Shown here in pieces: positions 5,576-48,900 of a stretch of DNA of 64,000 bases. Position 1 is the stretch's first letter. Each line of letters opens with the position of its first letter. The position numbers and the translations under genes were made by a program. The stretch lies in assembly GCA_024516035.1 (NCBI GenBank), contig CM044962.1:7908659-7972658 (forward strand), in the 5' to 3' direction. The notes under the pieces were generated by a model. The model was given only the letters and a program-made list of their open reading frames with translations, searched no databases and was not told the DNA's origin. The stretch is from Bactericera cockerelli. Lineage: Eukaryota; Arthropoda; Insecta; Hemiptera; Triozidae.

Positions 5576-5721
5576 CCTCGCCCAGCGTGAGTGGGGCCGG
5601 GAATAGGCAGCATCACGAGGGAACGTATTTGAATGGTCACCCATGAATGTCGCTGGGCGTTGCTTAACTTCAGTGACGGAACGAGAACTGGTGTATTCAA
5701 CGTGCCATTGACGCTAGCTAT
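5576..5721 (-). repeat. 5S-rRNA-derived SINE, fragment
   Basis: On the minus strand: AGCTAGCGTCAATGGCACG, then a 5S-like core ACTGAAGTTAAGCAACGCC and a diverged GGGTGACC box. The body is truncated. Confidence 0.6.
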
Positions 5722-6500: not shown

Positions 6501-6600
6501 NNNNNNNNNNNNNNNNNNNNNNNNNNNNNNNNNNNNNNNNNNNNNNNNNNNNNNNNNNNNNNNNNNNNNNNNNNNNNNNNNNNNNNNNNNNNNNNNNNNN
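6501..6600. other. assembly gap, 100 N
   Basis: Exactly 100 N bases, which usually marks a scaffold join of unknown size. Order and distance across this point should not be trusted. Any open frame running through the Ns is meaningless. Confidence 0.99.
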
Positions 6601-7803: not shown

Positions 7804-8431
7804 AACTTGTAAACGTAGTTTCTGGGAGGCGTTTTCCCGCGCAACGACCGTTTCGCTTGAAAATAGATTCTATGAATTATAGGATAGATGAACCCATAGA
7901 TTCTCTGAATGATATAGATATAATATACTCGTACATTTGATAAACTTCTAAAGTTAACGATAGGAGTTCCTTCGTAAAGTTATGAAAATCATCCCTGAAC
8001 AGGATATTTGCTACCTTCAGTGGTTTCTGAGATATTTGAGTGTGTCTTTTACAATGGGACACCCTGTATTATTTACTGGATCCAGAATACTACAGTTAGC
8101 TAATAAGTATATATATTTTTTTTTTAATTGTTTCGATTTATTTATTCAATACATGTTTTTATAAAATAAATATTTCGTTGAATGCATCAACGGGGGGCAT
8201 GGTTCCTTCTACACATGCAGCGTTGCCCCTCTCTACAGCCATCGAAATTCTTTGGTACAAATAATCCTTGGCCCTGTTATCTCCAATTATTTGAATTATT
8301 GTTTATACTTTCGGTTGATGTTGAATAAATAAACAAAATAATTTATTTTAATGAGTCGTGTTATTTTAGCTGTCAAAAACGGTTGATTTTATTAGTGGGT
8401 ACTTATACTCGTACTTGACCATTCGCTTACC

Positions 8432-8439
8432 TATAAAAG
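8432..8439 (+). promoter_or_regulatory. TATA box of the dibasic-repeat precursor gene
   Basis: TATAAAAG lies about 212 bp upstream of the ATG at 8652. An ACAGT initiator-like motif follows at 8471-8475, slightly farther than the usual 30 bp, so the exact start site is uncertain. Inferred from position; no transcript evidence is available. Confidence 0.55.
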
Positions 8440-8651
8440 CCCACATTTTGTGACCAAAGAGTATTTGTGAACAGTGTGGTGGCTTAGGGTTTAATTAAAC
8501 TCTAGGAAACTGAATAAATTTTAGTGAGTCAGTTCGGGTTTCAAGGCTTCTGAAGAAGCATTTACCCTTTTGAATCATTTTCAATTTTAATATTAAATAA
8601 TAAAAGTATTTATTTGCTGGAAACAGGACTGTAAGATCTGCATTTACAATT

Positions 8652-8702
8652 ATGAAGAAGGCAATGATAATTCTGGGTTTCGTAACAGTATTTGTTGCAC
8701 TG
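8652..8702 (+). CDS. dibasic-repeat peptide precursor, exon 1 (signal peptide)
   Basis: ATG opens MKKAMIILGFVTVFVAL, a textbook signal-peptide start with a basic n-region and a hydrophobic core, then reaches CTG|GTAAGA, a strong 5' splice site in phase 0. The next in-phase acceptor joined to the repeat frame is TTTGCAG|GGG at 10647. The fusion gives ...VAL-GSCKLTADQ..., with a plausible signal cleavage near GSC. The assignment rests on matching splice phase, secretory character and an upstream TATA box. A start inside the intron at 10614 (MNFLFLLCTLQ) is the alternative and would also give a short hydrophobic leader, but that codon lies before the acceptor. Confidence 0.75.
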
Positions 8703-8766
8703 GTAAGATTTCTGGGTTTCTTCCTTAACGTCTTTTTAACAATTAGGTTTTTTTAATTTGAGTGAT

Positions 8767-9000
8767 CACACACCTTGTGGCTTAACGGTTGTGATTACTG
8801 CCCGTAGTCCAGAGATCCTGAGTTCGATCCCCGGTTGGAGCAGAGTTTTCGAAACACGCCAGGCCGGCATTTCCGGCCCTACCCAGTCTGGGTGAGGTTA
8901 ATGTGGGTAGCTGGTACGATGCACAGCGAATGGAGGGTAACAAACACCCCCGTCCTGATCAGGACGTTAAATTCAAATAGAATGGTTGGCGTTAGGAAGG
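8767..9000 (+). repeat. tRNA-derived SINE family 1 (intronic)
   Basis: Head ACCTTGTGGCTTAACGGTTG with B box GAGTTCGATCC and the shared family 1 body. It lies just inside the precursor gene's intron (8703-10646). Confidence 0.75.
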
Positions 9001-9442
9001 GCTTCCAGCCGTTAAAGAACGTGCTCAAAGCTACCAACCTCAAACACGAGGTTGAACAATGCCGATCCCAATAGCAACATATGGTAGGTATTGGGGTTCA
9101 AATCCTGGCGTGGGCAATAACTTGTCACCGTGGTTTGGATGTTTTCAGAGCTCACTCAGCCTCGTGAGTACAACGAGTGGCTATGTTAGAGGCATTGTCT
9201 ATAGCTACCTAGTGTCAGCATGTAGGTAAAAATGGGATTAATGAGATTTGAAACTTTAATAAATAGTTAAAAAGAACAAAAAATCTTTTTTTTGTTTGAC
9301 GTTTTTTCCAAAACGATCAAAAAGTACGCTTTTTGGTGGCGCTCCTGACAGCTAACTAGTACCTCCAAAAAAAACGCATGGAATCAATAATGTAGGAAAT
9401 TTTATTGGCTACAACTTTGCGCAAATTCACAAAACCAAATAC

Positions 9443-9608
9443 TCAAACTAACCTCATCTAGCTGAGTGGGGCCAGCAATAGCCAGCATCACGAGGGTTCG
9501 ATTTTGTATAGTCACCCATCCAAGTCCTAACCGCGCTGGACATTGGTTAATTTCGGTGACAAAACGACAAATGGTGTATTCAACGTGCGATGGACGAATG
9601 CTGGCTTT
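9443..9608 (-). repeat. 5S-rRNA-derived SINE, partial
   Basis: Minus-strand copy with a diverged 5S-like core (ACCGAAATTAACCAATGTCC, GGATGGGTGACTA). The body is truncated. It is immediately followed by another copy at 9629, within the precursor intron. Confidence 0.6.
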
Positions 9609-9628
9609 AGAATCCTTGAATAGCCTTT

Positions 9629-9866
9629 GCTTTTTTTTTTTTTAAGTGGGGTTTAACGTCGCTTTCAACTGCCATGGTCATATCACGACGGGGGTTTTAC
9701 CCTCCATTCGCAGGAAACTCACAAACCTGCTACTCACATTGACCTCACCCAGCCTGAGTGGGGCCGGAAAAAGCCAGCGTCACGAGAATTAGAATTTGAA
9801 TGGTCACCCATCCAAGTCTTAACCTCGCTGGATGTCGCTTAACTTCGGTGTTCTGAAGGGAACCGA
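9629..9866 (-). repeat. 5S-rRNA-derived SINE, head truncated
   Basis: Nearly identical to 30651-30920 from the T-rich tail (AAGTGGGGTTTAACGTCGC on plus) to CTTCGGTGTTCTGAAGGGAA, then it breaks. The first 5S nucleotides are missing. Confidence 0.75.
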
Positions 9867-10646
9867 GCCTTTGCTTTAAATCTGTAGCGGAACTTTAAAT
9901 CTGTAGCAGAAAAAAGTTCACCACACTGACTTCTTGAAATCAAGCAGTTTACTGTACTTATCCTCATCATCTTTTGCACTTGCCCTTATGAGTGAGCAGT
10001 GGCGTAGCTAAACCTACATTTCGGGAGGGGGGGGGGGGGGGGGGGGGGGTTTGAGAGAGAGAGACTACGTATATTTCATCGTATTTATTTTGCAGGGGTT
10101 TCTTGAAAATTTCGGGGGGGGGGGGGTTGTCCCCAAAACCCCTCCCCCCCCCCTTTCTACGTCACTGTGAGTGAGAAGCTGAAAATTATAAAAAAAAAAT
10201 ACAACTGGCCAAAGTTTTGCGAATTTGAAACAAAGGTAGCTTTCCAACATAACTAAGAAAAAAAAAGTTAGTTTCCATGAACGGTATGGGTATAATTTAT
10301 TGACATTAGGCTTATTATGATTTTTTTTCTTTAGTTTTTGCTTATTTTGATAACTTTAATTTTCTGATTTTGAAAGTCCATCAAGAAAGACACCATGAAT
10401 TAATTTTTTCAAAAAAAAAAAAAAAATCGAAAATTCACATAGGCGATTATTCTTGACACTTATTGCTATTGCTTCAGAAGGTGTGCCATACAAAAGTATG
10501 GATAACCCTGTAAACAAAACATACCAATCCAAAAAGACAAAATAATCTAATGTGGCTGTTGGTTATGGCTTCAAAAATAAATAGCTTTAACAATCACAGA
10601 TTTAATAATAATATTGAATTTTCTTTTCTTGTTGTGTACTTTGCAG

Positions 10647-12779
10647 GGGAGTTGTAAACTCACTGCTGATCAAATGAAACTTAGAAGAGATGACTCTGAC
10701 CTAACACCGCAGGTATTGACAACCAGAGGGATTTTAGAGGAAATACCTAAACATGCTAATGAGCAAGATATTCTAAATAAAAAGGTACTGAAGAAGAGAG
10801 ACGTAACAGATTCTATTGAAACCCCATTAAAGAAACGAGATATCATAGGAGATGCATTCCAGACTCCAAAATTATTGAAGAAAAGAGACTTTTTAGAACA
10901 AGCCACAAACGTACTGAATAAGCGAGATATTCTAAATAAAGTCAACTATCCACTAAAGAAACGAGAAATAACTTTGGTCACTGATATTAATAAGCGAGAT
11001 CTTTCTGCCGACAGAAATTCATTGAAAAAAAGAGACATTTTAGACCAAGCCTCAAACCTACTGAGTAAACGAGATGATATTGAAGAAAAGAAATTGATGT
11101 TATTGAAGAAAAGAGACATTTTAGACCAAGCCACAAACCTACTGAATAAGCGAGATGATATTGATTTATTGAAGAAAAGAGACATTTTAGACCAAGCCAC
11201 AAACCTATTGAGGCGAGATGATATAAATGTATTGAAGAAAAGAGACATTTTAGATCAAGCCACAAACCTATTGAGGCGAGATGATATAAATGTATTGAAG
11301 AAAAGAGACATTTTAGAAGAAGCCACAAATCTCTTGAGGCGGAATGATATAAATGTATTGAAGAAAAGAGAAATTTTAGACCAAGCCACAAACTTACTGA
11401 GGCGAGATGATATAAATGTATTAAAGAAAAGAGACATTTTAGACCAAGCCACAAACTTACTGAATAAGCGAGATGATATAAATGTATTGAAGAAAAGAGA
11501 CATTTTAGAAGAAGCCACAAATCTCTTGAGGCGGAATGATATAAATGTATTAAAGAAAAGAGACATTTTAGACCAAGCCACAAACTTACTGAGCAAGCGA
11601 GATGATATAAATGTATTGAAGAAAAGAGACATTTTAGAACAAGCCACAAACATACTGAGCAAGCGAGATGATATAAATGTATTGAAGAAAAGAGATATTT
11701 TAGAACAAGCCACAAACCTACTGAATAAGCGAGATGATATAAATGTATTGAAGAAAAGAGACATTTTAGAACAAGCCTCAAACCTACTGAGTAAACGAGA
11801 TGATATTGAAGAAAAGAAATTGATGTTATTGAAGAAAAGAGACATTTTAGACCAAGCCACAAACCTACTGAATAAGCGAGATGATATTGATTTATTGAAG
11901 AAAAGAGACATTTTAGACCAAGCCACAAACCTATTGAGGCGAGATGATATAAATGTATTGAAGAAAAGAGACATTTTAGACCAAGCCACAAACCTATTGA
12001 GGCGAGATGATATAAATGTATTGAAGAAAAGAGACATTTTAGAAGAAGCCACAAATCTCTTGAGGCGGAATGATATAAATGTATTGAAGAAAAGAGAAAT
12101 TTTAGACCAAGCCACAAACTTACTGAGGCGAGATGATATAAATGTATTAAAGAAAAGAGACATTTTAGACCAAGCCACAAACTTACTGAATAAGCGAGAT
12201 GATATAAATGTATTGAAGAAAAGAGACATTTTAGAAGAAGCCACAAATCTCTTGAGGCGGAATGATATAAATGTATTAAAGAAAAGAGACATTTTAGACC
12301 AAGCCACAAACTTACTGAGCAAGCGAGATGATATAAATGTATTGAAGAAAAGAGACATTTTAGAACAAGCCACAAACATACTGAGCAAGCGAGATGATAT
12401 AAATGTATTGAAGAAAAGAGATATTTTAGAACAAGCCACAAACCTACTGAATAAGCGAGATGATATAAATGTATTGAAGAAAAGAGACATTTTAGAACAA
12501 GCCACAAACCTACTGAGCAAGCGAGATGATATAAATGTATTGAAGAAAAGAGAAATTTTAGACCAAGCCACAAACCTACTGAGGCGAGATGATATAAATG
12601 TATTGAAGAAAAGAGACATTTTAGACCAGGTTCCAAACCCGTTGAACAGAAGAGGCATAGATCCAATTCTATTGAAGACAAGAGCTATCTTTGCGCAATC
12701 CCCAATTGCAGTTGACGACAAAGCTGTAGAAGAGGCAGGCATAGCTAATTTATCTGGTATTAAGAGAACAGATAAATGA
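10647..12779 (+). CDS. dibasic-repeat peptide precursor, exon 2 (peptide array)
   Basis: This exon encodes 710 residues; with exon 1 the protein is 727 aa. After a short acidic lead (GSCKLTADQMKLRR) the chain is a series of segments bounded by KKR and by NKR, SKR or RR. I count 24 close copies of DIL(D/E)(Q/E)A(T/S)N(L/I)L (some begin E), one diverged copy at each end, and linkers mostly DDINVL or NDINVL. Five N-terminal segments share only the KKR/NKR bounds and have unrelated cores. The tail is NRRGIDPILLKTRAIFAQSP..., ending at TGA. No amidation Gly precedes the basic sites and there are no cysteines in the array. The layout is that of a multi-copy neuropeptide or secreted-peptide prohormone cut by a furin/PC2-type convertase. 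I do not recognise the peptide. An amphipathic 22-residue helical repeat protein is the alternative. Confidence 0.85.
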   Translation, partial: GSCKLTADQMKLRRDDSDLTPQVLTTRGILEEIPKHANEQDILNKKVLKKRDVTDSIETPLKKRDIIGDAFQTPKLLKKRDFLEQATNVLNKRDILNKVNYPLKKREITLVTDINKRDLSADRNSLKKRDILDQASNLLSKRDDIEEKKLMLLKKRDILDQATNLLNKRDDIDLLKKRDILDQATNLLRRDDINVLKKRDILDQATNLLRRDDINVLKKRDILEEATNLLRRNDINVLKKREILDQATNLLRRDDINVLKKRDILDQATNLLNKRDDINVLKKRDILEEATNLLRRNDINVLKKRDILDQATNLLSKRDDINVLKKRDILEQATNILSKRDDINVLKKRDILEQATNLLNKRDDINVLKKRDILEQASNLLSKRDDIEEKKLMLLKKRDILDQATNLLNKRDDIDLLKKRDILDQATNLLRRDDINVLKKRDILDQATNLLRRDDINVLKKRDILEEATNLLRRNDINVLKKREILDQATNLLRRDDINVLKKRDILDQATNLLNKRDDINVLKKRDILEEATNLLRRNDINVLKKRDILDQATNLLSKRDDINVLKKRDILEQATNILSKRDDINVLKKRDILEQATNLLNKRDDINVLKKRDILEQATNLLSKRDDINVLKKREILDQATNLLRRDDINVLKKRDILDQVPNPLNRRGIDPILLKTRAIFAQSPIAVDDKAVEEAGIANLSGIKRTDK
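11043..12494 (+). repeat. 726-bp higher-order tandem duplication in the peptide array
   Basis: Eleven consecutive repeat units starting at DILDQASNLLSKR are repeated almost unchanged in the next eleven. The marker CTGAGTAAACGAGATGATAT recurs at 11061 and 11787, a period of 726 bp (242 codons). At protein level I see one difference between the blocks (ILD versus ILE in the first unit). This points to a recent in-frame segmental duplication or ongoing gene conversion. Confidence 0.85.
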
Positions 12780-12933
12780 ACATTTCGGAAAGTCAAGAAG
12801 ATGTTTTAAAAATGTTTCATGAAAAATAATTTTAAAAAATACATTACTATTTATGTTTTGTTTTAGATAAGATAAAAATGATTTATTTTCGCCGAACGAA
12901 GACTACTGATTCTTGTAAGATTTTAAATAGATT

Positions 12934-12939
12934 AATAAA
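12934..12939 (+). terminator. polyadenylation signal of the precursor gene
   Basis: AATAAA lies 155 bp after the stop codon in AT-rich sequence, before the next repeat begins near 13 kb. Inferred by position. Confidence 0.5.
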
Positions 12940-12984
12940 CTACATAATTATATGAATAATTTTGCATGCATGTACTTTAATTTC

Positions 12985-13267
12985 TATTTGTCTATAAAAC
13001 TCAAACCTGTGTGTGTCTGCCTGGCGGCTGACTATGTCCTCTTAGGGGTTGTTTACAATACCACAGCCCAAACGGTAACAGATATTGAAATTTTCATGAG
13101 AGTTGACCCTCCCTAAACCACCGTCAAAATATCAAAAAAATTATCAAAATTAAAATATTTATTACCATTTTCAAGATATCGAGAATTTCTGGTCTAATAA
13201 TGATTTAAATAGGACATCAGCCACGGGCAATAACCTCAACGGTGACAAAGTGCCGGGATTTAGCTAG
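12985..13267 (+). mobile_element. Helitron-like fragment
   Basis: Related to 6601-6802 (TTGTCTATAAAACTC..., AAACGGTAACAGATA, AGTTGACCCTCCCTAAACC) and ends GTGCCGGGATTTAGCTAG|T, a CTAG terminus with a degraded hairpin. Confidence 0.45.
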
Positions 13268-13288: not shown

Positions 13289-15511
13289 TTGATTTTGATT
13301 TTTTCCTTTCTTTTGAACCTACTTTTTCTCACTGCAAGGATACTTGTAAGAAATAGTTATACATTAGTAAGTAAGCACAAGAATCGGGTTGTGACCGCGC
13401 GTAATTTCAAAAACTTCAACTCCGACCTTTTTCTTCAAGACGCACAGGCGGCCAACTGGTCAAGAACTTACGACTTGGAGGATATTGACGAAAAGCTTTC
13501 CTGTTTCAATGATATTGTCTTAGATCTCTTCAATAAACATGCTCCTTTTCGCACTTTTGTGGCTCACCACCCACCTGCACCTTGGATGACGAGTGAAATA
13601 AAACGATTACTAAATAGGAGAGACAGAGCAAGACGAAAATTCGTCAGGTCGGGTTCCAGTTTGTACTTTGAGTATTTCCGTGTAGCCCGTAACAAAGCCA
13701 AACAAGCGATCCGAAATGCGAAAATTCGTCACACACATGCTCTGTTTCCTCCTGATCTCCCTATTAACGAATTTCACAAAAACGTCAAAAAAATCCGTCC
13801 AAAGATCAAGGAAGACCCCCCTGATGTTGATGTGAACAGTCTTGTGGACTTCTTCTCGCTCACTCCGCAACCTGACCGACAAGCAATGGAAACCGCATCA
13901 CATCATTACTCTTCTCTGCGCCAGATATACCCAAGTTCAAATTCGAAGAATTCACCTACTCAGATCTGGTTAGACACTTGAAAAAAGGAAATCCTTCTTC
14001 TATGGGCTATGACCAGATTCCCCTGAATTATTTAACACGCATGTTGCACATAGTGGCTCCCATAATACTTCACATTTTCAACTGTTCCATTCATCTTAAA
14101 ATATTTCCCGCTGTCTGGAAAAGAGGACTGATTCGACCGATTCCCAAAACAAAAAACCCCTCTGGACCTTCCGAATACAGGCCAATCAGTCTTCTTTGCT
14201 CCTTATCTAAGGTTTTGGAGCGTATGATTCATCATCAAGTAACAAAATATATCAATACTCACAACCTTTTGAGTCCCTTCCAGTCAGGATTCCGGTCTGG
14301 TCATAGTACTTGTTCAGCATTGTTAAAAGTTACAAATGACATACAGCTCTCTAGGGACAACAAAATGGCTACCGTCCTCGTTCTATTTGACTTTTCAAAG
14401 GCCTTCGACCTCGTTTCCCATCGTCTGCTGCTCTCAAAGATGCAAAACATCTTTGGTTTTGACCCCGACGTCATTGCATGGTTCAGATCATACCTTACTG
14501 AACGATTTCAATGTGTGTTGGGAGTCGACCAAAAAAAAATCTAAATGGATGCCCGTGGTTTTAGGGGTTCCTCAGGGCTCTGTTTTAGGACCCCTACTGT
14601 TCTCGTTATTCATCAACGATATTCCTTCTTGTTTCTTGTCATCTCGCTTTCATCTATAAGCCGATGACTTACAAATCTATTACTCCTTCGATCCTTCCGA
14701 GACAGCCGAGGCAGCCCAAGTCATGAATAATGAAATCAGTAATCTCGTTACCTGGTCGAAAAACAACGGTCTTAAAATCAACTCTTCAAAAACCAAGGTA
14801 CTTCTAATCAGTAGCCATCACACTCTTCGGCGCATTTCTGTTCCACCTCCATTCATTCAGGTAGATGGAGACGACATAGAGGTTGTCGAATCAGCCAAAA
14901 ACCTTGGTATTATGTTTGACCGCACCCTCAGCTGGAAATTTGAAGTAAATAACATCAGGAAAAAAGTCTTTGGGGCACTCTGGTCTTTAGGTCGTCTTAA
15001 AAAATATGTCTCGTTAAACACTAAGAAGCTTCTAATTAAATTCCACGTCTTGCCACTTTTCGAATACTGTGCCCCACTTCTCCTGGGAATTACTCAGGTA
15101 GAAGCGAATAGATTACAACGGGCACAAAATGCTTGTGTCCGTTTTATTTTCAACGCTAGGCGTCGGGATCACATAACTCCTTACTTTAACCGTCTTCAAT
15201 GGTCTAAAGTCGAGGCCAGGAGAAAACTCCTCACTCTATTCCTACTCTACAAAATTATATCTTCAAATTCTCCTTCATATCTGTTCGAAAAATATTGCTT
15301 CCGCTCCAATATCAGCTCTCGAGAAACAAGGTCACATCATCTCCTCCTTGAAATCCCATCCTGTAGAACAGAAGCATATCACAAGGAATTCCTGTCATCC
15401 TCAATTGCCCTTTGGAACTCCATTCCGACCCCCATCCTCAACTGTAAATCTTTCTTTCGTTTTAGATCTTCCCTTATTGAAGTTGTTGGCAAGAAAACAA
15501 TCCCCTTCTAA
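13289..15511 (+). pseudogene. decayed jockey-type LINE, ORF2 (reverse transcriptase)
   Basis: Successive frames give an endonuclease-RT linker, then RT blocks: [48 protein letters not shown], (*)ADDLQIYY and a thumb/C-terminal region with NLGIMFDRTLSW and HITPYFNRLQW. The copy is broken: a TGA/frame change near 13980, a frameshift at an A run near 14535, and a nonsense change replacing the Tyr of the catalytic FADD/YADD box near 14657. The endonuclease domain is 5' truncated. The 3' UTR continues to about 15797 and ends in (ACTTAT)n-like repeats. Solo copies of the same tail lie at 41923-41995 (plus) and about 52048-52110 (minus). Confidence 0.85.
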
Positions 15512-16683: not shown

Positions 16684-19600
16684 TCATGTTGATAGTAAAT
16701 TCATAATGTTGAAGAGGGAATTTTTCGAAAATTTCTCGGAAATTAAACAAAAATTAACGTTAACAATGAATTCTAGACGTATTTGCACTTTCTTTCGCAC
16801 CTGGGTTTTGTAGCCGGGTGCACTTGCTATGATTTGATAATACCCTAGAAATAGCATTCTCTTGTACTCTCCTCTTGCATCTGTCTTCACAACTATGTCT
16901 TTCTCTCCTTTTCTTTGAATTCGGACAACAGCCCCTTTCACAGGTATGCCTTCTTTATTTATTACATAGCCGCAGATACCATGAGAAGTACCCTGGTACA
17001 TAACATATAAATTTTGATTAACGGAACGTTGTAGTTCGTTGAGGACCACCTCTGCCTGGTAAGGCATGAAGCAAGGGGCTGATGAGTATAAAGAATAAAA
17101 ACCATCGTTCAGCCTGAGCCAGTACTCTCCGCTATCTCCCACAGGAACTTCCGTCACCAAGGAGCCATCGCGTCCAGTTGCATTATCCTTGGTTAGCACT
17201 CGGATGGTAACTTGTACTGGCTTACCCATTAGACGCATCACAGTACCGAAGACACCTTGCCGAATCAAAGTAAAGTCAAGTTGGACAGGTTCCTCCGCAG
17301 TTACATTCACTGACATGTTCTTACCTGCGCAGCCGGCGGCACTCGCCATGATGAGATACTTCCCCGCACTTAGCATCATCCCGAATTTACCGTCATGCAC
17401 CCTAAAATCGTTTCCAACTTTTTTGCCAGCTTCTAATGAAAAGACTTGGATAATGCCTCTTTGAACCGGTTTGCGATTATCATCGTTCACTATTGTACCA
17501 GAGACACTTTTTCGAACCAGAACGAAATCTAGTTGGACATGAGGTTCCTTTGTCAGATCCACCTGTTTGGTCTTCTCTATGAAGGTGGGAGGTGCGCGCA
17601 CTGTCACCTCATACAACCCCGGTACCAGCAGCCTCCAGTACTCTCCGTCTTCAGTCGTCTTAATAGATTTGTGTTTTCCTTTCACTTCCACAGAAGCTCC
17701 TTTGACAGGTTTGCCTTCCTTGTCCGTCACCAGGCCGTAGATGCCTTGGTGGATGCTTTCGATGAAGTGTAGCATGGATGGCAGGTTTGCGGTCCAATAC
17801 ATGGGAAGGTCAGACGGTGGGACCCATTTGTCACAACTGAGGTGGAAGGTGATTTCGAAGCAGTTGGAAAAGAAGTAGTTCGCATCTTGCATACCTGAGT
17901 AACAAACAGAATTACGGCTAAAGTAGTTTTGGAAAATTATTCGATTTCTTCAAAGTTCAAATAAAATTGAAAGCACGATGATTTGAATCTGAAAGTTTTT
18001 ACACTAAATCAAAACTAAACGTTTTTGAGGGGGGGGGGGGGGTAGTAATCAACTGCATGGTCATATCACGACGGGGGTGTTACCCTCCATTCGTGGATAG
18101 ACAGACGGACGCAAAGACCCATGGCCGAAAACAACTTTTTGGTATCCTGAGGCAAAACTATGATTCGTATGTGAAAAACGGGGTAGTTCAAATTTTCGAC
18201 GAATACAATACTTTGCTTATTATAGGATAAGGAAAGTAAAAAGGTACCGCGTGATCCTATGTGGTCCAGAAACATTTTGAAAAGAAGTTAAATACTTCAA
18301 TAAAAATGTAAAACTTAAAGTTCATTTAAAATTCAATCATACTCCAACTCACAAAAAAACTTAAAAGTCGCAGAATACCATAAAGTGAGCTTTTTAGTGA
18401 ACTACTGAACTCCCAACGAATAGGGGTAAAATCCTCGAACCAGATGAACTCACAATTAAAAATGGTAAAAAAAAAAAACGTTAAGTAAAATGTAACCACT
18501 TCAGAATCAGAATAAACAGAAATTGAGAAGTTGTACTTACTTCCACGTTTTACATTCAAACAGTCTCCGTTAGTTATTCCATCTGGGAAAGATTTATCGC
18601 ATGAGTCGTCGGATGGCATCATCGGATTCCGTTGATCATAATCCTTGGCCAACTTCTCAAGAATCTCATCATCCGAAGTTAAAGTCAGAACCCCATATTC
18701 CTCAGAGCAGTCTGCATTATGAAAGGGATAACCGCCCTGAAGGTTTCCAGAAAGAACAAATGGATGTTTCTTGATTAAGTCCAACATACTCTGTGTCTCT
18801 TGTTGGTAAGGCCTGAAAAAGACAACGAAGCCCCTGCAGTAAGAACAAGAACAAAGTAGTGAACTTTTTGGACAAAAATTAAAATTTAAACATCTTTTAA
18901 AATCAAACAAACAAGCTTGGATTTTCATGATCTTCGATGGTAAAGCGCATCGCCAATTTACCACCGATCCTATCCTTTCCTCTCCGCGTCCATGTGTAAT
19001 ATCATGGTGATGGAAAGATTGATATTGGTATTGAACCTTTTGGACGCCCAGAACCAGTGTTGAGGGCTCCTTCCATGTCCAGTGTATGTGTAATTGTATA
19101 GTGTGTTTAATTGTACACTTCAATTTGACAATAGTAAAAATTTACCACTGTACCACCGATGTTAAAAGTGTTGTTCAACAATTTTGCCGTGTTGAAAATT
19201 TAGGTGGGACGATGCAGTGTTGATCAACATTGTTGAACATTAGGGAGACAGCAAAATTACAAGTAGTCCTAAACAGATATGTTCGGGACTGACAAGCATT
19301 TGAGATCATACTGCTTCCCAAACCCATCAATACAAAATGAGTAGGTACATGAGAGGAGCGGTCTCTAAGAAAGGCCATTTTCGGAAAAATGATCCTTAAG
19401 AAAATGCGCTAACAAGTTTTCAAATTTTAGATTACTCAGTCGGATTTTCAGGTACAGATGTGAGATTTTACAAGCTGATGGAGAATGTTCTTTTTTAAAA
19501 CACCAAAAAAAAAAACATATAAAATAGAGGTTACAGTCGTTCAAAACTACAACACTTCAAATTCAATTTGAAGGTATTAAATTAATTTTCATGATTAAAA

Positions 19601-21507
19601 ATGAAAAAAGAAAGTCTTTTCTCAACATTAAATAAATCATAACACTTCTTTGGGGGAAAAAAAATATAAAATAGAACAAAATAGGGATGTACAGGAAAAA
19701 TGAGAGAGAGAAATGGTATCACAATAAACAGGTATCCATGAAAAAGCTCATTGTTTCCATAAAATTGTAGGCAAAACCTATGGTACGATGGGATTTTATT
19801 TGAAGAATAGTATCTCAGCAACTACTTATCGCACAGCTGACATGACACACTCCCCAAATTCAGAACACCATTAAAAATCTAAATTCTGAGAGTCCTAAAA
19901 AAAGGCCATTTCCCGCAACGGCTCTTTTTACTCACTGCTCCTCACTTTTACTCACTGCTTTTACACAATTTACTCACTGCTCCTCATAAATACAGTCACT
20001 GTCGTTACTGAATCTAAGAATCTTATGAGATCTGTAGCCTATTCCAGAAACACTTTCTCCTCTCCGAATCTCCGTTTCAACCGTCAGACAACGCACTCTA
20101 ATTGGTTATTGCGTTCAATTTAACCAATCAGAGTGCGTTATGTGACAGTAGAAAGAGAGATTTTCGAGAGTAGAAATTATTTCTGGAATAGGCTACTGGT
20201 GTATCAAACACCTCGGCCGAGGTGTGAAGAACGCCTATACAAAGAAAGAGACAGCCTGGCAGAGTGTAAGGTTGAACAGACTGACAATTGTGACACATTT
20301 CTTACCAAGTATCTTCCAGGGTGGTCTCTGGGAAATCCTGATCCAGTTCTACATTGAGACCGTTGGACGAGTGTTGAGGGGGTAGCAAAGTGTTGTCTTG
20401 TTCCAAGGAAAACAAGCGATCCGGATTCAGAGTGGGTACAATCCAGATATCAGTCGTGTTCAAGAGTCGAGTGATGTCCTCGTCAATACCATCCCTGTAC
20501 ACCAGGTGCTGTATGAGTGACACCTGGGGAGTTTTGGAATTGTTTTTAATGGGCTAAAAATTAGACATTGCTATCTGCTTTTAGCATTGCTAAAACACTT
20601 TGGGGGACTATAAACAGGGAGCAGACCAGCAGTCTGGCTGGGGGACTATAAACAGTGAGTAGACCAGCATTGGCTTAGTTCTGGGGCCCTTGTCAATTAT
20701 TAGCCTCCTTGTAAAGACAGTGGTAGATGAAAACACTTTAGTATTCCCTACAACTTCTTACTTTTCTGTTAATACTGAAATACTGATTTTTAATGGGCTA
20801 AAAATGAGACATTGTTATCTGCTTTTAATTCAATAATTATCTAGTCAATTTTCTTATAGGATCTGTAAGGAATACTGATTTGCTGGGATATTTTTTACAG
20901 CTAAATTTAGATATTTTTTAGGGGGACAGTGTTTTTATACGCCCTTTCCCCGTGTCCAACCATCCTAGACGTCAGGACTTTGAGTATGTATGTGTACTTT
21001 GCAAACCCTCCTAAACAAGTTTCCTAAAGAATTGGCAGCGTCATCTCTCACACACTCTACACCTCGTATAAGTCTTTTTTTAATAGGACTATTTCCTATT
21101 TAGGAGTTTTCTTTTTTATGTACTAACAATATGTATACCATTAATGCGTATCCAACTGTCTCATCTCCATTTATATTCGCCACAAATTTGAACATCGGCT
21201 TCAGGATCTTCCTCTTTTTCTGGACATCCCGACTGATCTGCACCGCCCAGATTGGGTTTCCAGCAAAGGTACTTTTCCCTATCTCGATGCGTTTCACAAT
21301 AGGGGAATAGTTTTCGGCGAGAGTTTCCAAAAGGTCTCTCAAGGCAAATGAAGTCAAATAGTGGTCATGTTCGATTTCCTTTTCAATGTGCACTGACAGC
21401 GGCGGTGTCATGGTGAGATTGTATGAGCTGGTGATTGTGCAGGAGACTTTTCTCGAGAAGAAAAAACCCGACAGAAGAAGGAAGACAGTTAAAAATTGTT
21501 GAACCAT
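16684..21507 (-). CDS. gene A: secreted M14B carboxypeptidase-like pseudoenzyme, 4 transthyretin-like domains
   Basis: Exons (minus): 21139-21507, 20306-20523, 18541-18812, 16684-17894. All junctions are GT-AG and the phases (0, 2, 1) close a 689-residue protein. The start MVQQFLTVFLLLSG is preferred over an upstream Met (21525) because it aligns with gene B (MVLQCLIVFLI). The carboxypeptidase fold spans roughly 45-325: WAVQIS, FVANINGDE, VPTLNPD, FVLSGNLQGG, GITNG and NCFEITFHLSC. Catalytic positions are changed: first zinc His to Asn113 (Glu116 kept), second zinc His to Gln221, Asn-Arg of the substrate site to Asp184-Gln185, and catalytic Glu to His304. Four transthyretin-like domains follow (about 337-415, 416-498, 499-587, 588-672). 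No membrane anchor is seen. Family knowledge: carboxypeptidases D/E/N trim C-terminal Lys/Arg; inactive relatives (CPX, AEBP1, the third domain of CPD) act by binding. Activity here is very unlikely; function is unknown. Confidence 0.85.
18055..18260 (-). mobile_element. fragment of the GTATTCGTCGAAAATT repeat family (Helitron-related)
   Basis: On the minus strand: TTTCCTTATCCTATAATAAG...GTATTCGTCGAAAATTTGA..., then GGATACCAAAAAGTTG. It is shared with 36540-36700, 44938-45070 and 48450-48900; the last of these ends in a Helitron-like CTAGT terminus. It lies in intron 3 of gene A. A short piece of the 5S-SINE body (CATGGTCATATCACGACGG) abuts it. Confidence 0.5.
20034..20195. mobile_element. 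hairpin MITE in gene A intron 2
   Basis: A 162-bp inverted repeat: it begins GTAGCCTATTCCAGAAA and ends with the exact complement TTTCTGGAATAGGCTAC. The arms continue to a central ACGCACTCTAATTGGTTA / TAACCAATCAGAGTGCGT pair around a short loop. There is no coding capacity. The superfamily is unclear without a clean target duplication. Confidence 0.7.
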
Positions 21508-21602
21508 GTTCCAGAAACAAATCATATTTCAAAGCAGCTTGCAACTGGAGATTACGAAAAGGGTACTCTCTACAGACGTGTTAACAATGTTCTACCTTAT
21601 GT

Positions 21603-22412: not shown

Positions 22413-22477
22413 CTGACACAGAAGTGTTTCACTTTACTTTCAATTTTGAATTCAACTTGCGCTTTTTCAATTAAGTC

Positions 22478-25400
22478 ATGGTTTTACAATGTTTAATCGT
22501 TTTTCTTATATCCTCTGTTTATTCCTTATCACAATCAAGTCAAAATGAATCCTCGAACCTAAATGCGTCTTCGAGCATGAATGAATCTTCAAACTTCAGC
22601 GCGATGAAGACTATACTCCAATTTGGAAAAGATGAAATCAGACTGGACCAGTACTTGACTTTGGAGAAGCTAGGGATCCTTATAGATAAATTAGTTTTGG
22701 AACGGGGAGACATTGTGAGAAAGACTTCGTTGGGCCTGAGTGCCAACTTCAAGAGCCCAATCTGGGCGGTGGAAATTAGTCGCGATGTAAATCAGGAAAG
22801 GCCCCTACTCAAGCCAATGTTCAGGTTCTCAGCCAACATACACGGAGATGATGCAGTCGGCTACTCACTGCTGGTATGTATAATAATAATAATTATGCCC
22901 CAATGTCACCCAATTTGGGCAAGAGCGTTTATTTGCAGTAAACTACAAAATGTATGAATATTATATTGAGTCAGCTCATGAAAACTCAAAAGTACAGTTA
23001 AATCACAAAATACACAACAAAAAGTTACAGAAAATTTCAATGTTTTTCCTTTTCTTTCTTCTCTCTCTCTCTCTCTCTCTCTCCCTCTCTCTCTCTCTCT
23101 ATCTTTCTCTCTCTCTCTCTTTCTTTTTTTCTCTCTCTCTCTCTCTCCCTCCTCCTCACTTTCTTTTCTTTTTTATTCCACCATCATTTTTTTATAAACA
23201 TGTAAAATGAAAAAATAAAATAAACTTAAACTTGCTTAGATATCTTTATAGATAAACTTGATTAGATATGTATGCGGGGCTTTTAATATGGGTAACTGCT
23301 GGTATGTATGCGGGGCTTTTAATAATAGGTAACTGCTGGTATGTATGCGGGCCTTTTAATATGGGTAACTGCTGGTATGTATGCGGGGCTTTTAATATGG
23401 GTAACTGCTGGTATGTATGCGGGGTTTTTAATATAGGTAACTGCTGGTATGTATGCGGGGCTTTTAATATGGGTAACTTTCTTGCTAACTTTTTGGGGGG
23501 GGGGGGAATAAACGTCCCTTTCAACTGCATGGTCAAATCATGACGGTGGTTTTACCGCACATTCGCTGGAAACTCACAAACCAGGTACTCAAAGTTTTAT
23601 CTGAAACCCTGCAACCAGGTCACAGATATATTTTTTTAAAAACATTAATAAAATTAATAATTATTAATAAAAGATGTAACAATATTTTAAAAAGGTACTC
23701 CTGCTCCATCTTCGATTAAATTATAACTGCGTGGGTGGTATTTAGATCCCCGTAGCCTCAAAGATACCGCTCGAATGATGGCGAACTGAATTTTTGTTTT
23801 GATCCATCCAACATATAGATTAAGCTTGAAAAAAGTTTACACAGCATCATGAGATTGATTTCAGGCATCACTCACGCAATATTTGGTGTATAGTGACGGC
23901 CCTCACAACCCTCGTGTCCAAGATTTACTCAATAATACTCATATTTGGATCATACCTACCATCAATCCGGATGGCTTTCGAAAATCAAAAGTAGGATCTA
24001 ACGGAACAACCAGCCCGAAAGAAGTGAATCTGGACAAAGATTTCCCGTTGGCTTGTGATCTAAATTACTTGATTCAGTAAGTTTTTTTTAGAAAAAAGAA
24101 ATAATAGCGGTTTTCTTCGATCATTTTTTTTTTTTTTTTTTGATATGTTGAACTTTTTTGAACCTGTCCCTAATTTACCGGTATTTTCGGGGGTCACGCT
24201 TGGACTAATGTTTTTATTATTCATCCTAGATAAGGCTCGTGACATATCAAATCTAACAATTCAAGGTGCTGATTACGATTTTGATATTCATTTAGTTTTT
24301 GCCGAATGTGTCAGTTCAGTGGCGGAAATTGACCGCTGTTTGGCGACTTGGGTCGATCTTGCTACACGGTTAGCGATATTGAGAAATACATGATAGTTCA
24401 ACCCTATATTTATCATTTACTAAACACCTGTTACCATTGTAAAGGTTTGAAAAGTCGCAAATACAGTTATCAGTGGCGGAATTAAACTTATTTTCGAGGG
24501 ATAAGGAAAGTTAATGTGTGATGTTCTTTGTCCACACCAATTGATTTAATAAAGGTAAAATAAATTTATTTAATAAAGTAATAGAAAAAAATCAATTTCC
24601 GGTGATCGTTATGTAGGCCCTACTTTTTCTGAAATGAAAACGATCCAACACAAATAAATGAAAGAACTACAGGAAAATGTGTGAAACTTGAAAAAAGAAA
24701 TTTTCTTTTGCGGAAACGGCTATCGACATGTATTTTCTTTTGCAGGACTCGCCAACCTGAAACTCTGTCTATGCTGAAGCACATCACGACTAATCCAGTC
24801 GTTCTTTCTGCCAACCTCCAAGGTGGCGATGTCGTGGCCAGTTATCTTACGAGTGAAGTTGGCAACGGTTCCAAGGACGACTCGGAAATCTTTGAGAAGT
24901 TGGCCAGGGATTATGCGGCACATAATCCGATTATGAAACTCGGAAGAGCATGCGGTGGTGATTTCCAAGATGGAATCACCACGAGAAGTGTGAGCAAAGC
25001 ATTTAGAAGTAAGTTATTACTTCCGACTATATGAATGTTTTTTTTTTTTTTTAAAGATGAGTGTTTCACAGCCGTTTTTATTTCGTAGCCATGAAACAGG
25101 AGCTACTGTAGACGCCTGTGGTCTGTGTTGTAGTTTGCCCATCCCGTAGTAAGCCTCCCCTCTGATGGGCGAGAAGTGACACAAGCGCACCGGAAGGTAT
25201 CCCTTACAAACAATTGTAACCAAATTAAGAATACAAATTTTTGTCGGTTGGGGGGATCGAACCCGGGACCTTCCGTATGGCAAGCGAGTGCTTAACCACT
25301 GAGCTAATCGCGCGCGTTTGAATATTATAAACACAATACTTACCTCTTCAATATCCAGAATTAGCCAGCGTCGATGGCACGTTGAACACACCAGTTTTCT

Positions 25401-28400
25401 TTCTGTCACTGAAGTCAAGCAACGTCTAGAGAGTTTAGGATTAGGATTTTTATTATTATCTGACCTGGTTGCAGGGTTTTCAGTGAAACCCTTACAATTA
25501 ACACTGCGACCTAATTAGATCTATTGTGACCAGTTGATTCTGTTTGGTTTTAACCTGATTGAGATAGATAGTCAGGACGGGGGTTTTACCCTCCATTCGC
25601 TGGGAATCGTACCAGCTACCAACATTAACCTCACCCAGCCTGGGTAGGGCCGGAAATGCCAGCCTCACGTGTTTGGAGGGAACCTTTGCTATATACCTAC
25701 CTGTAATTATAAATCCCCCAAAAAATATCACTTCGTGACATAAAAAAAGTCCCGCCAATTCGTTGCACAAAAATATTTCAGTTCCCAAATTGATTCCTCC
25801 CTTCCCAAAAAATATATTAGTTATTATTGACCTCCCCCAAAAAATTATTGAAATCAATTTATGGCCCCGCCTTTTATTCATTCACCTAAGTGCAACAGTA
25901 TACTTATTAATAGCCTCCCCTCTCTCTTTCTTCTAATGTCCTCTTTCTTTTGTTGCTTGTTGCATGTTGGAATGTTTCCTTTACAAACTCAGAACTTAAG
26001 TCTTATTTCCTTGCTCCTTTCACCGACTTGGGCTCTTGGCGGAGTACCACTAACTGGGAATGATAAATATATGAATCTAATAGACAGTGCTATTTTTAAA
26101 GAATTAAAAAGAGATAATTTAACATAGTGGTTCTTATGGAGAACAGGAAAGGAGAAGTCTAGCCGACCGCGACCCAAGGATGCATTATCTGTATCTAAGT
26201 CGCAAAATATCTGCCACCAACGAGAATTGGACCATCAGATCAAGTCACGATTCAGGCTCATTTCCACAAGGATCACATGTTTACATATGTCTACATTTAT
26301 ATACAATCTTAGAAAAGAAGCAAGACATCAGTTCCTTTGGCTAAGAACGGACCTGCAGGGTGGTACTCCGCCAAGAGCCCAAGTCGGTGAAAGGAGCAAG
26401 GAAATAAGACTTAAGTTCTGAGTTTGTAAAGGAAACATTCCAACATGCAACAAGCAACAAAAGAAAGAGGACATTAGAAGAAAGAGAGAGGGGAGGCTAT
26501 TAATAAGTATACTGTTGCACTTAGGTGAATGAATAAAAGGCGGGGCCATAAATTGATTTCAATAATTTTTTGGGGGAGGTCAATAATAACTAATATATTT
26601 TTTGGGAAGGGAGGAATCAAGTTGGGAACTGAAATATTTTTGTGCAACGAATTGGCGGGACTTTTTTTATGTCACGAAGTGATATTTTTTGGGGGATCTT
26701 ATAACTTTTTGTAGTGGCCCTGCATAGGTGTGTGGTGTATGATGTATGATACATGTTAATTCAATATAAAACTATTTAACATATTCAATAATGACTTTAA
26801 AGGAACAAGTATTGATAAATGAAACAGTTTGAATGTGAAGATAAAGATTTTAGTTTGATATTCATAACCAAGCACAGTATCTTTCTCCAAATTATTTTTT
26901 CACCTAAAAAGTAGATATGCGACTTTTGACTCATCTGGGAGAGTGATAATATACTAGATACTGAATATCTATACACCAACTTTGTTCTGAGCTCTGAAAA
27001 TGATCCTTTTTTCAATTATGGGCCAAATGTCCATCTTAGGATAATAGAACAATAAAAGAGCACACCTACTACCCACGAGAAAAAAAATTAGCCATCGTTT
27101 GTGAAAATCGGTCTAATAGTTTTGGCTGTAAAGCGGTCAACGTGAAAGAAGAAGCAGTAAATGATGAAAAAAATGACGTTTTTAAAGTTTGGTTTTCTCC
27201 AACTTAACTCAAACGATTTTGATGGTTCTTTTTTCAAAGCTTGTCTTTATCGTGCCCCAATCTATATGTATTTATAGTCCAATTGCCTTCATCACTTGTA
27301 CTTTTTTTCCTACAACTACAAGAATTGTGCTACTTTTGCTCTGGCGTATAATATCACTTGGTATAATATCACCGGTTTCAGCGTAGATTTAGTAAAGCGA
27401 GTTAGAGTAGTTGTGACATCACGAAAGTGATTAACAAAAATATGATAACATTTTTAATATAACTTGGTAACGCGCGAATTACTTTGACTTGGAGGTTCGG
27501 AGCGCTACCTCGGTCCTAAATTATAAAATTTTATTATTATAATAATGATAGGATTTTCTTATTATAATAATGATCTCGCCATATTTATGAGACAGACAAA
27601 CGAAAGCCAAATCGTCCAGAATGCAAGTTAAAACAGAACCCCACTTAGTGAGGTTGCTTCGCTCCCTCACTGTGTTCGGTTAATAATAGTATGTCCTACA
27701 TTGTTTAACGGCAATATTATTATTTTTTGCTCTATTTTACATGGCAGGGTTCTTCTTAAAGAAGCTCTTCCATCCAACAATAACTAGTGTTTCTTTGAAC
27801 AGTAAATTGAGGTTTACTGTTCAAAGAACCTCACTTAGTGAGTTCGTTCTCACTGTGTTCGGTTAATTATGTTTAAAAGAAGGTAAGATAACAAGCGAGA
27901 CCCCTCCCTCAAGTCGAAGAACGATTAGAGAGATAGTCCGGGTTATTCTAAATTTAATCCCGTTTCATAAATTGGCCCTTTGCCACAGATTTTTACAAGG
28001 ATACTGTGTGGTGCCATTCATTTTATCCAGATGGGCCTCTCAACTGGTTCAGATAGTGGGTACACCCTGAACATATTTTCTTAATTTATGTCAGATATAA
28101 TAATTAGGACTTTTAAGTCCCATTTTCCAGCAGTATGCCCAAGGTGTATTATTATGTGGTAAAAATCCCAAATGGGAGGATAACTATGAATTTTTACAAT
28201 TAATTTCTATGAAAGAATACTGAGAACGAAGCTTATTATTAGCCAGCGGCGATGGCGCGTTGAATGCACCGGTTCTTGTTAGATCACCGAAGTTAAGCAA
28301 CGTCCAGCGAGGTGAAGACTTTGTGATGCTGGCATTCCGGCCCAACCCAGGCTGGGTGAGGTTAATATGGGTAGCAGGTTTGTGAGTTTCCTGCAAATGG

Positions 28401-31400
28401 AGCGTAACACCCCCGTCGTGATATGACCAAATGACCATGCAGTTGAAAGCGACGTTTTTATTATTATTATGAACTGGTTGGGGTCCCACAAGAAGGGCCC
28501 CAATTATCACACCGACCTCTATTAGATCTATTGTGACCAGTTTGACCTGCTCACACTCCTAGTTGTCTAGTATGTGTGAGAAGTTTATTTCTTGGTTTAC
28601 TATGTCCAGATTCCCGTTCCTGGACAAGCAGGGCTAGGTTCTTGACTTTAGTTCCCAAGTTTGGTACAATTTCAAGATTATTGTTGCCAAATATCCTGAA
28701 TCTTTTCAGCTCCAGTGCCTCACATTCAAAGAGAATGTGAGTCGCTGTTTCTTCTTCAAGTCCACACAGTCTGCATTCAACTGGTACGTCCCTAGAGAGA
28801 CCCAGTCTATGCAGGTGTTTCCTGAATGGACCATGTCCTGTGAGCATGCCCACAGCTGTTCTCAGTTGCTTTCGGCTTAAAGCTAGAGCGTCTTGAGTGA
28901 GTTTTTTGGAATAACCTGCTAGTGTCAATTTGGCATGACGCATGCCACCAGAGTTATTCCAAATTTCATTTGCTTTTTCTTCCATCCAGAAATTGACACT
29001 AGTTTTGACTGAGCGTTTAGTCAATCCTAGTACCGGTTCTGGACCTATGAAGTGCATTTCTGCTCCCTCTCTTGCGACGTTAAAAACCACAAAAAAAAAA
29101 ACGAAGCTTATTGTGTTGTTCAAGTAATAAATGTATAAATATATTTTTTTTCAACTGTTAATTTTTTATAGTATATTATAAATTTCTCTTTTATATATAG
29201 AGATGAGGTACAACACAACCCACAACAAAAAGGGTACGTACCTCAGAAACTCACTAAATTTAATGTAAAATATTAAAAAAAAAGTAAAGAGTATTTTGTT
29301 AAAGAAAAAAAAAATTACATGTCCCAGCTTGGTTTAGAACCCGCGGACCTCTGACATCTCTAGCATCGCACAGTGCCGCCTTTACCACTGAGCTAACTAG
29401 ACTGTTGATGTCCCCACGTGGTTTTTGCAACACATAAAAGCTTCATTTTATTTTACTTTGTATAATAAACTTTTTAGCGGCCAGCGAAAGAAATATTTAC
29501 TAGAGGGAATTGGATAGGGAAGGAAGCCTTTCACTTCCTATGTAACTAATAGGTACCTACATTCCTAATTAGGAATAGGTATTAGGTAGTGTAGGGGCTT
29601 TTACAAAGTTTTCTATGAAACTTCTACATTTCCTACTTAGAAAGGTCCCCAAACATTTAGACATTCATGTTACACATACATATTATGTAACATTGGGTAC
29701 TAGAGATTTTTTACATTTTTGAACCTAGATAATATAACCAACATTTTAGAAGAAAAAAAAATCCTGTCTTTTTCACTCCTTGGGCATTACAGGTTTATTA
29801 TAGCTATGTAGGTATGACGTTATTTGTGGTCAAGCACAAGGCCTCTTCACAAATTTTGTGGGTAGCGCAGCATTACTAAGAGCCTCCTTTACTTTTCAAA
29901 TTCTATTACATTAATTTATTTTTACTCTGGTAATGCCGCCACTGGTCGTTACTTATTCAGTAACTACTCATTTTTCCTCACGAGGTATGAGTGGACCCCA
30001 AACACCCAAGTAATGTGCGGAAAAATTCCTGCCCAGCTGGGGATCGAATACAGGTCACCATGCGTGGTAAGCTTAGCGCGCTAACTCACTCAGCACCGGC
30101 GACTATTTATGGGTTAGTATACCTTTACACAATTTCACATCGGGACATGTGGATTGAAAGGTTTGTGAATGAATACTTATATACATAATAAACTAGATTA
30201 AATATCTATACTCCAATGTTATTCTGAGCTCTGAAAATGATCCTTTTCCTTAATAACGGCCAAATGGTAGCTTTTGGGATAATGAAACCATAAAAAGGCA
30301 CACCTACCACCCAGAAGAAAAAAAATGAGCCATCGTTCATGAAAATCGGTCCAGTAGTTTTGGCTGCAGAGCGGTCAACGTCAAAGAAGAAGCAGAATTT
30401 TTTTTAAAAAAATGACGTTTTTATAGTGTGGTTTTGACCAACTTAACTCAAACGATTACGATGTTTCTTTTTAAAAGCTTGTCCATTATCGTGCCCCAAT
30501 CTGTACATGTAGTTCAATTTCCTCCATCACTTGTACTTTTTCTCCTACAACTACACGAAAAGTGCTACTTATGCTGTCGCGTATAGTATACTCTTGGTAG
30601 CGCGCGAACTATTTCGATTGACTTGGCGGGTCGGAGCGCTACCGCGCTCCTTTTTTTTTTTTTTTTTTTAAGTGGGGTTTAACGTCGCTTTCAACTGCCA
30701 TGGTCATATCACGACGGGGGTTTTACCCTCCATTCGCAGGAAACTCACAAACCTGCTACTCACATTGACCTCACCCAGCCTGAGTGGGGCCGGGAAAAGC
30801 CAGCGTCACGAGAATTAGAATTTGAATGGTCACCCATCCAAGTCTTAACCTCGCTGGATGTCGCTTAACTTCGGTGTTCTGAAGGGAACCGGTGTATTCA
30901 ACATGCCATCGACGCTGGCTACCGCGCTCCTTAATATCTCATAGAGATAATCAAGGGCGGACGGTGCTAAGGAGCTGCGGAACTGCACCACCCCCGGACA
31001 AAAAATAAAAAGAGAGTGTTTTCTAGCTCGTATCCAATAAAAGTTACCACACATTTCTAGAATTATTCTATCCATAGTTATTATTAATGTGCGTGGTAAA
31101 AAAAACTCAAACTCTATACATATATACTGAAAGAGCGATTCTATTAATCCCCTTTTAGTCCGGTTTATTTGGCAGCACCACCAAAACATTTTCCCACCGG
31201 CCGCGCCTGGAGATAATAATTCATCCTTATTAGCTGTATTTTTCTTTCTAACCAAAAAAAAATTCCAGGTTAGGTTTTTTCCAAATATTTCCATTTTATT
31301 CCAAGGTTAACTTCACTTTCTAACCAAAGTTAACCAAACGGGAATAAAATGAACTTAACGGGAATAAAATGAACCAAACTGGAAGCAAGAATTTTCTACT

Positions 31401-45534: not shown

Positions 45535-46012
45535 TGTATTTGGCTTTAATGCAGTATTTGGCTTTATTGCAGTATTTGGCTTAATTGCAGTATTTGGCTT
45601 TAATGCAGTATTTGCCTTTGATGCAGTATTTGGCTTTGATGCAGTATTTGGCTTTAATGCAGTATTTGACTTTGATGCAGTATTTGGCTTTAATGCAGTA
45701 TTTGGCTTTAATGCAGTATTTGGCTTTGATGCAGTATTTGGCTTTGGTGCAGTACCTATTTGGCTTTAATGCAGTATTTGGCTTTAATACAGTATTTGGC
45801 TTTAATGCAGTATTTCGCTTTAATGCAGTATTTGGCTTTAGTGCGGTATTTGGCTTTGATGCAGTATTTGGCTATGATGCAGTATTTGGCTTTAATGCAG
45901 TATTTGGCATTGATGCAGTATTTGGCTTTAATGCAGAATTTGGCTTTGATGCAGTATTTGGCTTTGATGCAGTATTTGGCTTTAATGCAGTATTTGGCTT
46001 CAGTGGAGGTAA
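45535..46012 (+). repeat. 18-bp minisatellite, about 26 copies
   Basis: The unit GCAGTATTTGGCTTTAAT has variants at the last positions. Because 18 is a multiple of 3 it stays open in several frames (LMQYLA repeats on plus, KAKYCI on minus). There is no start context, splice context or homology, so these frames are not genes. Confidence 0.9.
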
Positions 46013-48421: not shown

Positions 48422-48900
48422 ACTAGCGGGTTATACCCGCCGCTTCGCCAGCCCATCAGACACACACATACATACACACACACAGACTGACGCACGGACC
48501 AATTGCTGAAAACAACTTTTTTGGTATCCTTAGGCTATGATTCGTCCAGAAATGTGAAAAACTGGGTAGGTCAAATTTTCGACGAATACAATACTTTCTT
48601 TTTTTTTAAAAGTGGGGTTTAACGTCGCTTTCAACTGCCATGGTCATATCACGACGGGGGTTTTAGCCTCCATTCGCAGGAAACTCACAAACCTGCTACT
48701 CACATTGACCTCACCCAGCCTGGTCGGGAAAAGCCGGGAAAAGCCAGCGTCACGAGAATTAGAATTTGAATGGTCACCCATCCAAGTCTTAACCTCGCTG
48801 GATGTCGCTTAACTTCGGTGTTCTGAAGGGAACCGGTGTATTCAACATGCCATCGACGCTGGCTACACAATTCTTTCCTTATTATAGGATGAGGAAAGTA
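48422..48900 (-). mobile_element. Helitron-like element split by a 5S-headed SINE
   Basis: On the minus strand the element ends GGCGAAGCGGCGGGTATAAC then CCGCTAG|T, a CTAG terminus. Its interior is the GTATTCGTCGAAAATT family. A 5S-headed SINE (48601-48865) interrupts it within the ATACAATACTTTC segment, with roughly duplicated flanks (CAATACTTTC / CAATTCTTTC). Confidence 0.6.
48601..48865 (-). repeat. 5S-rRNA-derived SINE
   Basis: Full-length relative of 30651-30920, with the T run on plus at its left end and AGCCAGCGTCGATGGCATG on minus at its right end. A small rearrangement lies at about 48721-48740. Confidence 0.8.

Follow-up and report, generated by a model that had tools for sequence, protein, structure and literature searches.

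In the locust Locusta migratoria, the gene for the salivary gland salivation stimulating peptide (SG-SASP) is described as having two coding exons, a signal peptide, and about 12 copies of its peptide between Lys-Arg sites (PMC4237046; PMC5533153). In the same accounts the peptide is non-amidated, acidic and without orthologs, its amplification is recent, and the copies shown carry no substitutions among them (PMC4237046; PMC5533153). Antisera and reverse transcription PCR located SG-SASP to the salivary acini and not to the nervous system, and the acini were reported to express the convertase PC1 and not PC2 (PMC5533153). For the SG-SASP precursor, having a signal peptide together with Lys-Arg sites and several copies of one peptide did not amount to being a neuropeptide, as this work shows (Veenstra, 2017; PMC5533153). 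Here we describe a predicted two-exon gene of Bactericera cockerelli (Hemiptera; Triozidae) that lies in a 64,000-nucleotide (nt) stretch of contig CM044962.1 (assembly GCA_024516035.1, forward strand, 7,908,659 to 7,972,658; hereafter the window) and probably encodes a processed secreted propeptide, either exocrine or neuroendocrine.

Most of the predicted precursor is an array of near-identical peptides of the DILDQATNLL type. A loose core pattern that did not require KKR found 26 cores, every one with KKR on its left (26/26); 24 of them are canonical and follow one another in steps of 21, 22 or 27 amino acids (aa) with no unit skipped, the same number that an earlier, sequence-only reading had counted. 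On their right, the 24 units carry RR (11), SKR (7) or NKR (6). That reading named only DDINVL as linker, which holds for 16 of the 24, the others being NDINVL (4), DDIDLL (2) and DDIEEKKLMLL (2); since the linkers are as well bounded by dibasic sites as the decapeptides, they too are predicted products by the same grammar. Twelve distinct KKR-plus-core sequences occur across the array, and positions I2, L3, A6, L/I9 and L10 are aliphatic in all 24 canonical units while the Leu codons vary. The flanking cores, first taken to be unrelated, are not all so; two of them, DFLEQATNVL and DILDQVPNPL, are divergent edge copies that depart from the consensus at 3/39 and 11/39 nt, respectively, over core and right site. 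An amidation Gly before a dibasic site (G-[KR]-[KR]) occurs nowhere in the mature precursor, and no Cys follows the assumed signal cleavage, as had been noted for the array.

The basic residues of exon 2 are strongly grouped, 151 of its 162 Lys/Arg lying in clusters. Dibasic sites are in excess even in the N-terminal part, although most cores there differ: the 126 aa ahead of the first canonical unit contain 7 KR/RR sites, a number that none of 20000 shuffles reached (mean 1.9), with a weaker excess when any basic cluster of at least 2 residues is counted (8 vs. 4.5 expected, P = 0.014). Cutting behind each KR/RR and trimming the basic residues would yield 59 fragments. Of these, 24 would be canonical deca- or undecapeptides and as many again linkers, leaving 11 others. 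Furin recognizes R-X-K/R-R in its substrates. Neither this motif nor R-X-X-R is present in the 727 aa, and the KR, RR and KKR sites suit PC1/PC2-type convertases, not furin, so that the furin part of the furin/PC2 processing first proposed is not supported.

The sense frame looks selected, and the other five frames show nothing alike. An open frame is by itself no evidence at this locus because two antisense frames, of 564 and 513 aa, are also open. Of the 22 distinct nucleotide changes that separate the array from the unit consensus, 12 are synonymous; the 10 non-synonymous ones are all conservative (BLOSUM62 > 0). The count leaves aside the two edge copies and the central part of both long DDIEEKKLMLL linkers. 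None of 1500 neutral simulations, matched for transitions and transversions, was without a radical change (mean of 9.1 radical or stop changes), and synonymous changes averaged 6.3 against the 12 observed (P = 0.0053 for 12 or more). In the other five frames 10 to 17 changes are radical or stop, as chance or worse, and the long antisense frames give no signal.

As a helix, DILDQATNLL is strongly amphipathic, with a moment of 0.61 that 0.5 to 0.7% of permutations reach. The property is lost when KKR and NKR are added (permutation fraction 0.42) or when the whole 22-mer including the linker is taken (0.86). The limits of the amphipathic stretch are thus those of the decapeptide predicted to be released, which favours an excised peptide over an intact repeat.

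Secretion would depend on the predicted splice, since in the exon 2 frame, from the preceding stop to the array, the sole Met comes after the signal region. As in the sequence-only reading, a signal-peptide exon would join the array exon in phase. Its donor is GTAAG and the phase 0, and in the predicted 727-aa precursor MKKAMIILGFVTVFVAL is completed by GSC encoded at the start of exon 2. The signal region, made of MKK, a hydrophobic core and GSC, has a mean hydropathy of 2.99 over 10 residues, and was judged on hydropathy only. Across the whole window the two strands together hold 79 ATG...GTRAG candidates in phase 0, of which three have a mean hydropathy of at least 2.8; two are nested ATGs of exon 1 and the third is slightly higher (at least 3.0). 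The 10.6 kb upstream holds three such candidates, namely the two nested ATGs of exon 1 and one that is not hydrophobic. No ATG occurs from 8463 to 8652, between the TATA-like element and exon 1. Stretches resembling short interspersed nuclear elements (SINEs) lie in the intron, as do 5S- and tRNA-like ones (by eye). The features are collected in Table 1.

Table 1. Features of the candidate propeptide gene, in window coordinates.
Feature	Position	Strand	Remarks
TATA-like element TATAAAAG	8432..8439	+	consensus match only
Coding exon 1, putative signal peptide MKKAMIILGFVTVFVAL	8652..8702	+	51 nt, 17 codons; GTAAG donor at 8703, phase 0
Predicted intron	8703..10646	+	ends TTTGCAG
Coding exon 2, propeptide of 710 aa and stop	10647..12779	+	coding to 12776; stop 12777-12779
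N-terminal spacer and dibasic-bounded segments	10647..11024	+	cores differing; includes divergent copy DFLEQATNVL-NKR
24 canonical units	11025..12605	+	KKR-(D/E)IL(D/E)(Q/E)A(T/S)N(L/I)L-(RR/SKR/NKR)-linker
Block duplication, 2 x 11 units	11028..12517	+	11028-11791 matches stretch 726 bp downstream, 761/764 bases
C-terminal segments	12606..12776	+	divergent copy KKR-DILDQVPNPL-NRR, 36-aa tail peptide, KR-TDK
AATAAA polyadenylation signal	12934..12939	+	consensus match only

The array is built of 2 x 11 units plus 2, in two 726-bp blocks with 3 mismatches in 764 bases; inside a block the units differ from one another. Such near-identity would mean that the block was duplicated very recently or that the assembly contains it once too often, and with one block removed 13 units are left by arithmetic. 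The copy number should best be taken as 13 to 24. No second copy of the gene was found in the window outside 8000-13000 (unmasked tblastn, E up to 10). A run of exactly 100 N at 6501-6600 is presumably an assembly gap.

Like the SG-SASP gene of L. migratoria, this one has two coding exons (predicted here), a putative N-terminal signal peptide, and a multi-copy, non-amidated acidic peptide between convertase sites, with no orthologs found and amplification that appears recent. The copies of SG-SASP are identical in nucleotides, whereas the cores here vary and near-identity is limited to the block duplication. Two peptides alternate in the psyllid array, and the sites are KKR, RR, NKR and SKR. 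Even with E allowed to rise to 100, no local alignment was returned between the 20-aa SG-SASP peptide and exon 2, a query of that length having little power. Orcokinins are also non-amidated; their core sequence appears unlike the peptides here, and the NPLP1 consensus is apparently not among them. In layout both offer parallels. Orcokinin A and B precursors are described as multi-copy (PMC4237046; PMC6585902), and that of Diaphorina citri is listed at 164 aa (PMC6321106). NPLP1 precursors are described as having convertase sites and containing several peptides that vary in sequence (PMC4237046), the one of D. citri being given as 617 aa (PMC6321106); unlike the present array, those of beetles are listed with 5 to 9 paracopies (PMC6585902).

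Protein database searches found no relative of the 727-aa precursor at E 0.001 (7995 candidates sharing most words scored) or of exon 2 residues 1-165 at E 0.01 (6726 candidates). These misses carry some weight because the same database holds psyllid proteins, as the search with a neighbouring retroelement showed; relatives that are unannotated, have diverged or differ greatly in size could still have escaped them. At the same thresholds neither NPLP1 nor orcokinin was matched, the presence of the D. citri records in the database being unconfirmed. Scans of prokaryote and viral contigs returned 66 and 29 pattern stretches, none confirmed as a relative, as expected of non-insect collections. 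Four decapeptide strings had 0 occurrences in 5.39 million open-access papers (DDINVL was not among the strings, and subscription journals and supplements lay outside the scope), and literature on psyllid neuropeptides, psyllid salivary repeats, Pachypsylla galls and lineage-restricted precursors turned up no such gene at the level of listings. Within the reach of database search, the results agree with the new, lineage-specific family proposed at the outset; the peptide family appears new, and of a known kind, that of multi-copy convertase-processed secreted propeptides.

The strongest competitor to an exocrine origin, though itself somewhat unlikely, is a true neuropeptide or peptide-hormone precursor, which would be processed in the same way in neurosecretory or gut endocrine cells and have a receptor as target. 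A signal peptide, dibasic sites and many copies are the usual grammar of such precursors, and roughly twelve insect neuropeptide genes are on record as having paracopies (PMC6585902). However, no relative was found in the protein searches, while most insect neuropeptides are said to have orthologs (PMC5533153), and none of the names in a table of 40 D. citri neuropeptide genes suggests a counterpart, judged by name and not by sequence (PMC6321106). The missing amidation Gly also speaks against a neuropeptide, although it is less odd than the first reading held, as SG-SASP lacks amidation too (PMC5533153). The exocrine reading is preferred because SG-SASP, a precursor built in the same way, is a product of salivary acini and not of the central nervous system; by this analogy an exocrine multi-copy propeptide is favoured over a neuropeptide, at about even confidence. 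The prohormone grammar first described therefore stands as that of a secreted precursor with a multi-copy array between dibasic sites; the precursor grammar is convincing and the neuropeptide label is not, the locust gene showing that such grammar does not suffice for it.

An uncleaved secreted repeat protein of short helices, its basic residues serving as surface or loop charge, is a distinctly improbable alternative. It would fit a single-sequence AlphaFold2 model (220 aa) with 10 helices, about one per unit and several running through KKR, which also counts against excision of the peptides. This model is poor, with a mean predicted local distance difference test (pLDDT) score of 54, a predicted template modelling (pTM) score of 0.29 and 0 residues at or above 70, and decides nothing. 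Four Pfam matches all fell under the cut-off, including a weak one to ANTAR (E 0.0012, 19 bits vs. a cut-off of 27.3) that counts in favour of this alternative; the best solved-structure match, at E 0.47, counts against it. Unit steps of 21, 22 and 27 aa would shift the helical phase by 300, 40 and 180 degrees, and most N-terminal segments retain the dibasic sites without the core, both of which argue against an intact repeat. That the array is decayed or mis-assembled, with no functional gene or with copies inflated by merged haplotypes, is very unlikely: the near-identity of the blocks would allow it and a like doubt was voiced for locust SG-SASP (PMC4237046), but the frame is continuous, unit steps are whole codons, the sense frame bears the signature of selection, TATA-like and polyadenylation matches flank the gene, and 13 units would stay with one block removed.

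Several further points weigh against the reading as an exocrine propeptide. The splice 8702/10647 is predicted, and cleavage, trimming, tissue and target are likewise inferred. The exocrine placement, held at about even confidence, draws by analogy on one precedent, whose peptide has no alignable similarity. The 22 distinct changes are few and, the units being related by duplication, non-independent; no homolog was found in the protein searches, and assembly may have inflated the copy number. Finally, because neither the DDINVL linker (permutation fraction 0.395) nor the N-terminal segments DIIGDAFQTPKLL (0.13), EITLVTDI (0.42) and DLSADRNSL (0.93) are amphipathic, the property holds for the main peptide and not for every product.

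Directly downstream of the gene lies a retroelement with reverse transcriptase, 13289-15511 (+), related to psyllid copies. Its reverse transcriptase open reading frame (14660-15508) has 39 listed relatives; of the best 16 of these, 8 bear psyllid names (D. citri, Cyamophila willieti, Cacopsylla melanoneura), with identities of 51-75% across 41-98% of the query, and one is from a butterfly. This one element points to a psyllid source, and a spider origin, which the look of the SINE-like stretches had suggested, was rejected in view of these psyllid proteins. About 4-20 kb downstream are two divergently oriented carboxypeptidase D/E-like (M14) genes, 16687-21528 (-) and 22475-32663 (+), with regulatory-like tail domains, whose reading-frame pieces were grouped by inference. 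The zinc-ligand motifs HGDE and NLHGG look altered, the former to NGDE in one gene and HGDD in the other (HGDD by eye), the latter to NLQGG in both, and the two are possible pseudoenzymes. For this reason they were not adopted as processing partners of the precursor. Elsewhere in the window are four 5S rRNA matches, some of which may be SINE parts (30798-30919 (-), 48742-48863 (-), 28242-28334 (+) and 5605-5718 (-)), a minisatellite in which a 22-bp unit recurs about 47 times (37383-38411), and about 26 repeats of an 18-bp unit with several frames open (45536-46000).

Under the exocrine propeptide reading, a two-exon gene of a sap-feeding insect would be expressed as a secreted propeptide; after removal of the signal peptide, a PC1/PC2-type convertase would cut behind KKR, KR and RR and a carboxypeptidase would then trim the basic residues. 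Each precursor would yield 24 acidic, amphipathic-helical peptides of the DILDQATNLL(N/S) family, accompanied in near-equal dose by 24 short peptides that are DDINVL in most cases. Production would most likely take place in an exocrine gland, which the analogy with locust SG-SASP suggests to be salivary, and the peptide would make up much of the secretion and not act as a transmitter in the brain. More speculatively, and on balance unlikely, the product could be a saliva-borne cocktail, a psyllid gland releasing dozens of acidic amphipathic decapeptides with a hexapeptide companion into the plant; the peptides might then, just as tentatively, act on host cells or membranes, and the array keep duplicating because dose matters. 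If real, the gene would represent a peptide family that is new and apparently restricted to its lineage, in a group of insects with vectors of crop disease among its members, and possibly a further case, beside locust SG-SASP, of full neuropeptide grammar serving an exocrine gland. It would then test how often genome mining mistakes the combination of a signal peptide and dibasic repeats for a neuropeptide.

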